Positions 635-28,374 of a stretch of DNA of 28,374 nt are shown here, piece by piece. Every line of letters begins with the position of its first letter. Positions within the stretch are counted from its first letter, which is position 1. A program made the position numbers and the translations under genes. The notes beneath the pieces are model-generated. The model had not been told where the DNA came from. It saw nothing but the letters and a program-made list of their open reading frames with translations, and did no database searches. This DNA is from a virus: IMG/VR virus record IMGVR_UViG_3300044621_001460, positions 1-28,374 of that record. One strand, 5' to 3'.

Positions 635-858
635 GGGACACTTCCGAGGACACTTCTGTACTTCTAGGATGCCGTGCTGGCCGGCATTGGGACACATGGG
701 ACAGATTTTTCCGACATCATCCGTCTATATATGCGAGCGTTGACGATGCGTGAACCTATCTCATATGGTGAATGATGTCGAAATAAAGTGTCCCATGTGT
801 CCTAATGCCGTGCTGGTCTACATCGTAGGTGGTGCCGATGTGTCCCACGATGTGTCCC
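635..858. repeat. Dyad-symmetric array of eight GGGACAC-like repeats; candidate origin or operator array
   Basis: Four GGGACA or AGGACA elements on the left (starts 635, 647, 689, 698) face four TGTCCC or TGTCCT elements on the right (789, 798, 841, 853). Spacings mirror each other (12, 42, 9 against 9, 43, 12) about a centre near 746. The inner arms 683-703 and 789-809 form a 21-bp inverted repeat with one mismatch. CGACATCAT at 712-720 pairs with ATGATGTCG at 772-780 about the same centre. The core is AT-rich for this genome. It lies directly downstream of the primase-helicase gene. This is the layout of an iteron origin, but an operator array is also possible. Confidence 0.7.
726..757 (-). 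promoter_or_regulatory. Leftward promoter candidate overlapped by a third XRE-type operator (O3)
   Basis: Read leftward, TTCACG (754-749), a 17-bp spacer and TATATA (731-726) form a plausible sigma70 promoter aimed at the gene at 614. Over it lies a 9-3-9 dyad at 737-757 with half-sites GCGTTGACG and CGTGAACCT. These match the half-site GGGTTGACG and its complement at 8 of 9 and 7 of 9 positions. The same architecture occurs twice in front of the XRE gene. The dyad is centred within one base of the surrounding repeat array. Repressor control is an inference. Confidence 0.5.
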
Positions 859-859
859 A

Positions 860-3178
860 TCACGACCAGTACCCACGGCCGTCGTGCTTCGTCGGCGCCG
901 ACTGCTCCTCGCGCAGGGACAGGCCGACCCAGCGCCGCCCCGCGGAACGGCTGGCGTCTTGAGCGTACCCTCGATCCTCGAGGTTGCGGGTGAGCCACTT
1001 GTGGGAGCGAGGGCGCTCTCCGTTCGCCACCGACCACGTGCTGAACGCTTGGTAGAGCTGCGTGTTGCCGACCGATCCCGTGAAGTAGCACTTCTCGCCG
1101 AGGAACTCGGAGAGCAGGTCCATATCGTCGCGGTACTTCTGCGTCGCGTCGAGGACCGCCGGGGGCGGCGAGAGCCCGATGCGCTGCCACTGGAGGCAGC
1201 CCTCGAGCGCCCAGGCGAGGATACCCGGCGCCTCGGCCGCAAGCTTCGCGCCGAGGTCGCGGTCCTTCTCGTGGTCGGCGATCGTCTCAGTGAACGGCAC
1301 GAGCCGGATGCGGCGCCAGATGCCGTGGTCGGTACCTCGGATGATCGGTCGGTGGTTCGTCGCGAGCAACACCTTGAAGGTCGGCTGGAACGTGAAGAAC
1401 TCTGCGCGCATGAAGCGCGCGGTCATGGCAGCGTCGCCGGTCATCTCCTTCACGAGGCCCTCGTCCAGCTGCTCGCCCTGCTCAGGCTCCGAGGCCGTCA
1501 CGAGGCGCGCACCGCGGAGCGCGGCGATGTCGTTGGGGATGCCGCCCTTCGTGTTGCGGACGAACGTCTCGGCACGTGCGTGCACGGCGTAGTCGCCCAT
1601 GATCGCGCGTAGCGTGTCGAGGAAGGTGCTCTTCCCGTTGCTGCCCGATCCATACAGGATGAAGACGCACTGCTCGCGCGTGCTCCCTGTGAGGCAGTAG
1701 CCCACGACGCGCTGTAAGAAGCCCACCATCTCCGGGTCGCCGCCCATGATGCGCGTGAGGAAGGCGACCCACGTCGGGCACCCGGCCTTGTCGCCGAGGT
1801 CCGTGCCGGCGATCTTTGTCGCTCGGGCCTCGCGCTCGTGGGGGCGCAGCGTATCGGTGCGAAGGTCCACGATCCCGTTCTGCGTGTTGAGCGCCCAATG
1901 GTCGGCGTCCAGTTCGTCGTGCCGGATGGCCACGTCGGTACGCGCCACCTTCGCGACCGCGAGGAGGTGCGCCTGCATCTCGCTCTGCCGTGCCCACTGT
2001 GCCCACGCCTTCGCCTCGGTGCGAAGCAGCGCGAGAGAGCGTTGCTGTGCGGGCGTCGAGGTCTTGCCGATGGTCACTGCCGCGGCCCTCGCGCGCTCTT
2101 GCAGCTCGGCGGCGTAGGTCACTACGTCTACCGCGACCTGACGCGAGAGCGAGTCCACCCGACGCATCGCGTCAGGCGCCCACCGCTTCCCGTCCCACAC
2201 GAGCCAGCCTTCGCCCTGGGCGACATCGCACCACCGCACATCGGCGCCGAAGCGGTCCACGAGGCGCGCGGCGTTGCCCACGTCGCTCGGTCGGTAGAGC
2301 GTGGCCGGGATGGTCGAGGGCGCATCGCTGAACCGGCGCGGGTGCTGTGCCCCACGGTCGAGGCCATTCCGCACAGTGCGGACCACCTCCTCTTCTCCCT
2401 TGCCAGCCTGAAGACCAGCGGCGACGAGGTGAGCATTCGCGACCTCGCGCGGGATGCACCCGCCTGCCACGAGCTCACCGATGTTCGCGCTCTCGCGGTA
2501 GATCGCATCATGCCGGCTACCGGTACATGTGAGGATGCGTTGCGTCGCGACCTGTAGGACCTCGGCGCCAGTGGACAGATCCTCATCGGTCACGGTCGCA
2601 GTCGTCGGGGCCTTCGGCGCCGGCTCGACCTTCGGCGGGTAGAGCACATCGAGGAGCCATTCGGGCGCCTCGGCAATCTCCGTGCAGTCACGTGACCATT
2701 CGTACTTGCGCCCGCTCGGGTGGATGCTCGGCGGCAGCACGACGTACCCGCCGTCGCCTCGCGTATCGAGCGCGGCGCGCTGCCCGTCGATGGTCACTCG
2801 CGCGCGGTTGCGGATCTCGCGCTGCGGCAGTTGGAAGTAATAGTGCGCCCCGTTCCCGGTGCGGACGTTGAGCGTGGGCGGGAGCGCCCCGTGGCGCTCC
2901 TCGAGGATCGCGAGGGCCTCGGGCCCGGTGAGCCCACCGCCCTTCGGTGGGTCGCCGTCTACGTCGAAGACCCACACGCCCGACACGGCACCGGTCGCGA
3001 GCCCGATGTTGTACTCTCGGTCGCCCCACATGGCGGCGATCTCCGCGGGGTCGCTGCTCGCGTCCTTGAACCCGTTGGCAGTCGCCGGCAGCTTGTCGCG
3101 CTCGCGCAGGGGGAACACCGCCCATCCTTTCTTGCGCGCGTAAACCAGGGCCATCTGGCCCATCTTGCTTCCCGTCAT
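860..3178 (-). CDS. Bifunctional Prim-Pol primase / D5-type replicative helicase
   Basis: This 772-residue replication protein should prime and unwind phage DNA at the fork. The N-terminal Prim-Pol domain (about 1-165) shows the catalytic FDVDGD (D72, D74), a GAHYYF motif (H112) and LDTRGDGGY near 138. The middle resembles a D5 N-terminal region. The helicase is superfamily 3, with Walker A GSGSNGKST (K516), a Walker B-like segment ending in SEPE near 564, the sensor Asn in ATNHRP (N608) and a GIWRR arginine motif near 622. The C-terminus looks like a winged helix. The start is ATG 3178, preceded by AGGTGGAG. An in-frame GTG at 3187 lacks a site. The architecture is like the P4 alpha protein, which also binds iterons. 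The repeat array begins at its stop codon. Confidence 0.95.
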   Translation of the reverse strand: MTGSKMGQMALVYARKKGWAVFPLRERDKLPATANGFKDASSDPAEIAAMWGDREYNIGLATGAVSGVWVFDVDGDPPKGGGLTGPEALAILEERHGALPPTLNVRTGNGAHYYFQLPQREIRNRARVTIDGQRAALDTRGDGGYVVLPPSIHPSGRKYEWSRDCTEIAEAPEWLLDVLYPPKVEPAPKAPTTATVTDEDLSTGAEVLQVATQRILTCTGSRHDAIYRESANIGELVAGGCIPREVANAHLVAAGLQAGKGEEEVVRTVRNGLDRGAQHPRRFSDAPSTIPATLYRPSDVGNAARLVDRFGADVRWCDVAQGEGWLVWDGKRWAPDAMRRVDSLSRQVAVDVVTYAAELQERARAAAVTIGKTSTPAQQRSLALLRTEAKAWAQWARQSEMQAHLLAVAKVARTDVAIRHDELDADHWALNTQNGIVDLRTDTLRPHEREARATKIAGTDLGDKAGCPTWVAFLTRIMGGDPEMVGFLQRVVGYCLTGSTREQCVFILYGSGSNGKSTFLDTLRAIMGDYAVHARAETFVRNTKGGIPNDIAALRGARLVTASEPEQGEQLDEGLVKEMTGDAAMTARFMRAEFFTFQPTFKVLLATNHRPIIRGTDHGIWRRIRLVPFTETIADHEKDRDLGAKLAAEAPGILAWALEGCLQWQRIGLSPPPAVLDATQKYRDDMDLLSEFLGEKCYFTGSVGNTQLYQAFSTWSVANGERPRSHKWLTRNLEDRGYAQDASRSAGRRWVGLSLREEQSAPTKHDGRGYWS

Positions 3179-3194
3179 TGTCTCCACCTGTCCG

Positions 3195-3284: not shown

Positions 3285-3656
3285 CTACGCCGCGTCAACC
3301 CTCTGCCGCCGCTTCGGCCGCGCGCCCCTCTGCCTCCCGACCGCATACGGCAGTCCCATGCGCCGGGCCCAGAGCAGCACGGCCCCGCGGAGGGTCTTGC
3401 CGTCCATGTTGATCCTCGCCTCCTCGGCGACCTCGTCCCAGGTGAACGCGCCCGTGTTCCACAAGGCGAGGGCCTCGTGGTACTCGCTCCGCATCCGGTA
3501 GCGCGTGGGAGGACATCCCCACGCGACGAGGATGTCGCGCATGGTCGAGGTCCGCATCCGCTCCCGGCGAGCCAGCCACTCGAGCGAGACGCCGTCCATG
3601 CGTTCCATGATCCAGAGCAGGACGAGGACGGGATCATGGTCGGTGGGCGCGCTCAC
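3285..3656 (-). CDS. Putative DNA-binding protein with two HTH-like segments
   Basis: This 123-residue protein starts with GTG at 3656, overlapping the upstream TGA as GTGA, with GAGGAGGGG just before it. Two segments share a pattern resembling helix-turn-helix units. One is at about residues 24-47 (SLEWLARRERMR, then TMRDILVAWG). The other is at about 72-100 (TWDEVAEEARIN, then TLRGAVLLWARRMG). A strongly basic tail (GRQRGARPKRRQR) follows. This suggests sequence-specific DNA binding, and the repeated halves suggest an internal duplication. It directly precedes the structured leader of the primase-helicase gene, so a replication initiator or regulator is possible. No named family is recognised. 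Confidence 0.7.
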   Translation of the reverse strand: MSAPTDHDPVLVLLWIMERMDGVSLEWLARRERMRTSTMRDILVAWGCPPTRYRMRSEYHEALALWNTGAFTWDEVAEEARINMDGKTLRGAVLLWARRMGLPYAVGRQRGARPKRRQRVDAA

Positions 3657-4768: not shown

Positions 4769-5229
4769 ACCCTCACCTCCCGCAGCGCCACGTCGACCCG
4801 CGGCTCCTCGCCGGGCGCGGCGTAGAACGACCCGGCGTTGATGCTGACAATGCAGCGGTCATTCTCGATCACGCGTGCGATCTGCATGGCATCGAGCACG
4901 ATCTTCACGATGTTGTCCAGGTCATGCCGCGTCGTCGCCGGCAGACTGTAGGCCGGCACCTTCCAGACCTCGCGCGGGATGTAGGCCGGGCGGGTCTTCG
5001 GCCTCGGATGGTAGGCCGTGATGTCGACCTCCCAGAGCGGGTGGATCCCGTCGAGCGCGACGTATGGATCAGGGTTCGCGCGCTGGTGCTGCTCCCGCAG
5101 CTGGTGCGCCGCCTCATGCTCCCACGCCCTGGTCGTCTCCGGCGTGCGGGCGCTGCCCGTCGCACGGGAGAATACCGGGCGTCCCTTGCCCCGCGGCTCG
5201 AGCCGGATGGTGTAGTGCTGATCGTTCAT
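4765..5229 (-). CDS. rusA: RusA-family Holliday junction resolvase
   Basis: This 154-residue protein should cut four-way DNA junctions formed during recombination or replication, leaving DNA suitable for packaging. The N-terminus reads RLEPRGKGRPVFSR, typical of RusA strand 1. The signature RHDLDNIVKIVLDAM supplies acidic residues D103 and D105, then N106 and K109. VIENDRCIVSI supplies the third acidic residue, D124. These correspond to the known catalytic Asp residues and Lys of RusA. Length is slightly above the roughly 120 residues of the E. coli protein, through a Pro-rich insertion near 65-95. It is coupled by ATGA overlaps at both ends. It likely acts with the ERF annealing protein encoded rightward at 5726. 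Confidence 0.93.
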   Translation of the reverse strand: MNDQHYTIRLEPRGKGRPVFSRATGSARTPETTRAWEHEAAHQLREQHQRANPDPYVALDGIHPLWEVDITAYHPRPKTRPAYIPREVWKVPAYSLPATTRHDLDNIVKIVLDAMQIARVIENDRCIVSINAGSFYAAPGEEPRVDVALREVRV

Positions 5230-28312: not shown

Positions 28313-28374
28313 TTGGCCCCCTAGGTTGCGTTCAAGGTACCGGGAGAGAGCGAGAAGGTCGAGAGCCTAACGGG

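Follow-up and report, generated by a model that had tools for sequence, protein, structure and literature searches.

What is the function of eight copies of a short word that stand as a near-perfect mirror, directly 3′ of the primase-helicase gene, in an environmental phage? The DNA analysed here, referred to as the window, is the whole stretch of 28,374 bases of the IMG/VR virus record IMGVR_UViG_3300044621_001460. Its phage genes include those for a Prim-Pol/D5 primase, RusA, ERF, an exonuclease and a large terminase. The window probably represents an entire genome whose cohesive end is 11 nt long. An identical stretch of 11 bases, AGCCTAACGGG, is found at positions 1–11 and 28364–28374; the contig of one relative, L003, ends exactly at the reverse complement of this sequence, and that of another, L006, reads across the junction into a small-terminase-like gene. 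Scanning the window against Rfam and for tRNAs returned nothing.

Geometry of the mirrored words

The array occupies positions 635–858, between the primase gene and a small gene (396–614), and consists of eight [A/G]GGACA[C/G] words that form four pairs around one common centre at 746–746.5. The plus-strand elements start at 635, 647, 689 and 698, and the minus-strand elements at 788/789, 797/798, 840/841 and 852/853. Outer element 1 (GGGACAC, 635–641) is paired with 1′ (GTGTCCC, 852–858) and outer element 2 (AGGACAC, 647–653) with 2′ (GTGTCCC, 840–846), both about 746.5. Inner element 3 (GGGACAC, 689–695) is paired with 3′ (GTGTCCT, 797–803) and inner element 4 (GGGACAG, 698–704) with 4′ (GTGTCCC, 788–794), both about 746.0. 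The eight repeats and their coordinates, as given in an earlier note made from the sequence alone, were thus confirmed, and so was its claim that each left element has a partner around this centre, with the qualification that the word is degenerate.

Across 21 bp, the inner arms (683–703 and 789–809) are inverted repeats of each other with a single mismatch, and a perfect 9-bp pair (712–720 and 772–780) shares the centre at 746; both had been described before and were recovered here. In the inverted-repeat listing, the arms appear as a 57-nt pair (664–720 and 772–828) with 77% matching. An additional mirrored pair, designated motif B, is composed of CTAGGATG at 664–671, within the 42–43 bp gap, and CATCGTAG at 821–828, again centred on 746. 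The core between the innermost elements (705–787), which is the proposed unwinding region and contains the 9-bp pair, spans 83 bp with a GC content of 40%, as compared to about 67% for the genome, in agreement with its earlier description as A+T-rich in a G+C-rich genome. The last base of the array lies one before the stop codon of the primase gene (TCA, 860–862); the adjacency reported earlier therefore stands, corrected by one base. No second cluster of the GGACA word was found elsewhere in the window.

When the whole 28-kb sequence was shuffled 60 times with its dinucleotide composition preserved, three same-centre pairs of one 6-mer never arose, while the window has three same-centre GGACAC pairs and a fourth that differs by one letter. 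Thus, the array is not a product of chance. Among all centres in the genome, position 746 has the highest complementarity (half-width 115 bp, z 4.6), but the next-best centre is close behind (z 4.3). Base matching by itself is just modestly unusual; the repeated word in mirror register is exceptional.

Conservation of the geometry among relatives

Primase searches of IMG/VR identified 13 relatives with the array (L001, L002–L007 and L033–L038), all of them metagenomic contigs, and in the window and all 13 the array starts no more than about 20 bp from the primase stop codon. Given that the L001 contig stops inside the array, the geometry was derived from the window and 12 relatives, 13 genomes altogether. 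From the outside to the inside, the gaps measure 11–13, 42–43 and 8–9 bp, except in L002, where 53–54 and 20 replace 43 and 9. In the 13 genomes, the core varies in length from 81 to 85 bp and in GC content from 39% to 48%. GGAC is retained in 103 of the 104 elements, and motif B is recognisable at a similar offset within the arms of the 13 genomes. The identity among seven lineages reaches 78% in the elements, as compared to 32% in the core and 28% in the DNA beyond the array. The earlier note had proposed a search for conservation of the spacing rather than of the sequence between elements, and this is the pattern found in these relatives. L106, the sole distant relative obtained from a scan of genome contigs, lacks the array.

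The two arms also change together. The inner gap varies in step on both sides (9/9, 8/8 or 20/20), and L007 and L038 have a fifth element on both arms. The match between left and right arms over 10 lineages was significant (p=7e-5), as only 7 of 100,000 shuffles that paired arms of different lineages were as good. Furthermore, mirror-mate elements share variant letters above the level of other elements in the same genome (113 of 132, as compared to 100.3 expected; p=3e-4). As judged from these sequence comparisons, the symmetry is maintained by evolution.

Two further features were observed in the family. Motif B, with the consensus CTACGATG, is mirrored in the gaps throughout. In the A+T-rich core of L033, L034, L035 and L038, TTATCCATA or its reverse complement is present, one base off a DnaA box; it is not present in the window.

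The putative initiator and alternative functions

The gene adjoining the array (860–3187, minus strand) encodes a Prim-Pol/D5 primase-helicase of the P4 family (Pfam Prim-Pol, 4e-45; D5_N, 2e-28; TIGR01613 primase_Cterm, 319 bits), which is the proposed initiator. A structure prediction of the full-length primase from 8 sequences was unusable (pLDDT 41), and an AF2 model of the C-terminal domain, covering the last 110 residues with 53 aligned sequences, was used instead. In this model, the domain at about residues 676–760 (908–1162, minus strand) adopts a winged-helix fold, with block pLDDT values of 83–93 across most of the domain, and would be the reader of the elements. The model matches the P4 origin-binding domain (1ka8) with a Z score of 7.2 and an rmsd of 3.4 over 77 aligned residues with 23% identity. 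Of the other structures compared, the RFX winged helices gave Z scores of 8.4 and 7.4, and those of cullins gave similar ones at 4–14% identity; such values are common for this fold, and the predicted likeness to the P4 domain rests on fold, identity and family together. With the TIGR01613 match, it bears out the link to P4 alpha that had been drawn in the earlier note.

Over the family, the element letters and the C-terminal domain showed a weak, not significant correlation (partial Mantel p=0.06). The L003 primase is a mosaic: it resembles that of L004 to a point some 400 bp short of the stop codon, from where the sequence is window-like across the C-terminal domain and on through the left arm. 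The first letter of the L003 words is of the window type (A or G), as compared to C in L004. This is one natural swap of the domain together with its words, but it can also reflect physical linkage.

Given its place 3′ of the initiator gene, its conserved geometry and its likeness to the EcCICFT073 origin described below, the array is very probably the replication origin of the phage, a two-sided iteron origin of the SaPI/PICI/P4 type. In this reading, the Prim-Pol/D5 protein would use its C-terminal winged helices to bind the GGACA words, of which each arm has four, and one initiator ring (hexamer) would assemble on each side, in opposite orientations. As proposed for the SaPI/PICI Rep proteins, the two opposed rings would open up the A+T-rich core, and the first primers would come from the attached primase. 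We propose that the mirror register is retained because the complex is two-fold symmetric, so that both arms need equal numbers and spacings of elements. The GC skew of the window, which had been suggested as a check, shows no switch at 746; this result counts against an origin, and GC skew is a weak test. Streptomyces phage Shaeky, Micrococcus phage Kurnik and Bordetella phage BPP-1 have no mirrored array 3′ of their related primases, and the layout is therefore not universal.

The inverted repeats might instead act as a DNA stem-loop (cruciform), with the Prim-Pol/SF3 initiator recognising the extruded hairpin, as proposed for pRN1 and Bordetella phage BIP-1. The domain plan and the position 3′ of the gene are shared with pRN1, which requires an intact 100-nt stem-loop (PMC4234260), the inner stem of the window measures 21 bp, and inner linkers are 85% mirrored. 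However, the complementarity is concentrated in the words (94% mirrored), as compared to 53% for the outer linkers and 55–59% for the gaps, the arms are built of one repeated word that a hairpin does not need, and the inner spacing of L002 has expanded to 20 bp on both arms. Since the words are mirrored much more than the linkers, protein-binding words are favoured over a hairpin, although the inner arms may still pair; recognition of a hairpin is unlikely here. BPP-1, named alongside BIP-1 in the stem-loop proposal, has no mirrored words 3′ of its primase. Moreover, the stems of pRN1 and pHEN7 themselves contain a 6–7-bp word repeated at 9 bp (p 0.0014–0.008 per arm), although the pRN1 origin has been described as a 100-nt stem-loop without iterons (PMC4234260). 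In the pRN1 stem (L116, about 5085–5182), TGTCCA-TAG-TGTCCA occupies one arm and its reverse complement the other, giving two TGGACA words 9 bp apart per arm, and pHEN7 (L119) has TGTCAC twice at 9 bp. A three-base deletion in the loop has been reported to abolish pRN1 replication (PMC4234260), which would fit a required distance between the arms. In pRN2 only a 4-bp word is repeated (p=0.19), and no repeated word was found in the pDL10 origin; the pSSVx stretch that was read is inside a coding region, outside this comparison of pRN1-family origins. The 9-bp-spaced words within the pRN1 and pHEN7 "stem-loop" origins look unreported, and the iteron reading of pRN1 is a lead, not proof.

An operator array for a regulator of the small gene at 396–614, or a site that terminates the primase operon transcript, is more improbable still. 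This same-strand gene does follow immediately, and a weak promoter-like site is present on the other strand at 740–769, but the downstream genes vary among the relatives while the array stays, no terminator-like site was found, and mirror spacing across 224 bp around a low-GC core would be atypical of an operator. The HTH-like protein encoded at 3285–3656, which the earlier note had put forward as a binder, has no family match and was not found in four array-carrying relatives; it was rejected as an unlikely candidate. The small gene itself belongs to PHROG 8600 (function unknown) with a sub-threshold YozE_SAM_like match, and is replaced by a different gene in several relatives. The least probable explanation is a packaging or partition site, such as terminase-binding sites near a phage end. 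About 0.6 kb separates the array from the end of the genome, where there is an apparent cos site. However, its position follows the primase stop codon rather than that end, and a PICI and other phages have the same layout 3′ of their primases.

Comparison with known origins

Same-centre pairs at p≤0.01 were found at 46 of 92 loci 3′ of D5-type primases, a figure that is descriptive, as the loci belong to few families (many with GGTGAC) and are not independent. More informative are the independent cases with irregular gaps, namely EcCICFT073 (GGTAGA), L016 (GTGACG), L024 (GGAAGG) and a Listeria phage (AGGGCA), in which the mirrored words likewise lie 3′ of the primase; phi105 and AcaML1 each show two pairs of mirrored words, also 3′ of the primase. 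EcCICFT073 contains five same-centre GGTAGA pairs 3′ of pri-rep, with irregular gaps of 11, 22, 46 and 9 on both arms (chance 5e-4). It is the weightiest parallel, because its rep-ori segment has been shown to replicate a plasmid (PMC6092414).

PICI origins always comprise two iteron sets around an A+T-rich region, a layout stated to be common to no known replicon besides PICIs (PMC6092414), and the phage layouts described here conflict with that statement. The SaPI Rep protein, apparently in the form of two hexamers, uses its C-terminal domain to bind iterons directly downstream of its own gene (PMC7581432), and the oppositely oriented SaPI repeats load two head-to-head hexamers (PMC9894130). 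The origin format is thus known already. Its strict mirror register looks unreported in the searchable open-access papers; subscription work, such as the original SaPI origin papers, may describe it.

It is possible, though we hold this only tentatively, that origins used by D5/P4-family primase-helicases generally obey a physical rule of exact mirror register, whether in a phage, a satellite or an archaeal plasmid, the arms co-evolving as a two-fold symmetric double ring measures their distance; in that case, the pRN1 origin would be of the mirrored-iteron type in its smallest form, 2+2, with overlooked words. This offers a different reading for an origin whose recognition motifs were reported as unidentified (PMC4234260). 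As a sequence rule, the same words, opposed, with equal gaps on both arms and directly 3′ of a D5/P4-family primase, would locate origins in environmental phages without experiment, and the symmetric changes among relatives could serve as natural experiments on the placement of two initiator rings.

In tandem-iteron plasmid origins, the initiator-binding words all point the same way and are confined to one side, next to an A+T-rich region. The window shares the repeated words by an A+T-rich region, but has two opposed sets around a centre; the earlier contrast with tandem iterons holds for iteron plasmids, but SaPI/PICI origins already have this format. The pRN1 plasmid of Sulfolobus resembles the window in its Prim-Pol, SF3 helicase and winged helix, in an origin 3′ of the gene, and in a GGACA core with the 9-bp spacing of the window's inner pairs, but has just 2+2 words. 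P4 alpha is likewise a primase-helicase with a C-terminal winged helix, and crr of P4, which is located immediately 3′ of alpha, contains repeats of either orientation. However, P4 alpha has a Toprim primase domain in place of Prim-Pol, its type I repeats are GGTGAA-like, crr is not exactly mirrored about one centre within each repeat unit, and P4 uses two separate cis sites (crr and ori1), as compared to the window without a second distant cluster.

The closest likeness is to the SaPI/PICI origins (EcCICFT073, SaPI5 PriRep). In both, the array is directly 3′ of a P4/D5-family rep gene and two opposed iteron sets flank an A+T-rich stretch, with 4+4 words in the window; the initiators share a C-terminal winged helix, which in the window is predicted to be origin-binding-like. 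The arms are exactly mirrored in EcCICFT073 as in the window, with GGTAGA in place of GGACA. On the other hand, the window family differs from SaPI/PICI origins in its 4+4 or 5+5 elements, the extra mirrored motif B and the 83-bp core, and from PICI satellites in being phages with their own large terminase (the window and 6 of 7 relatives). The window fits the SaPI/PICI mechanism, and we therefore file the array as a probable origin of that kind, carried by a phage rather than a satellite.
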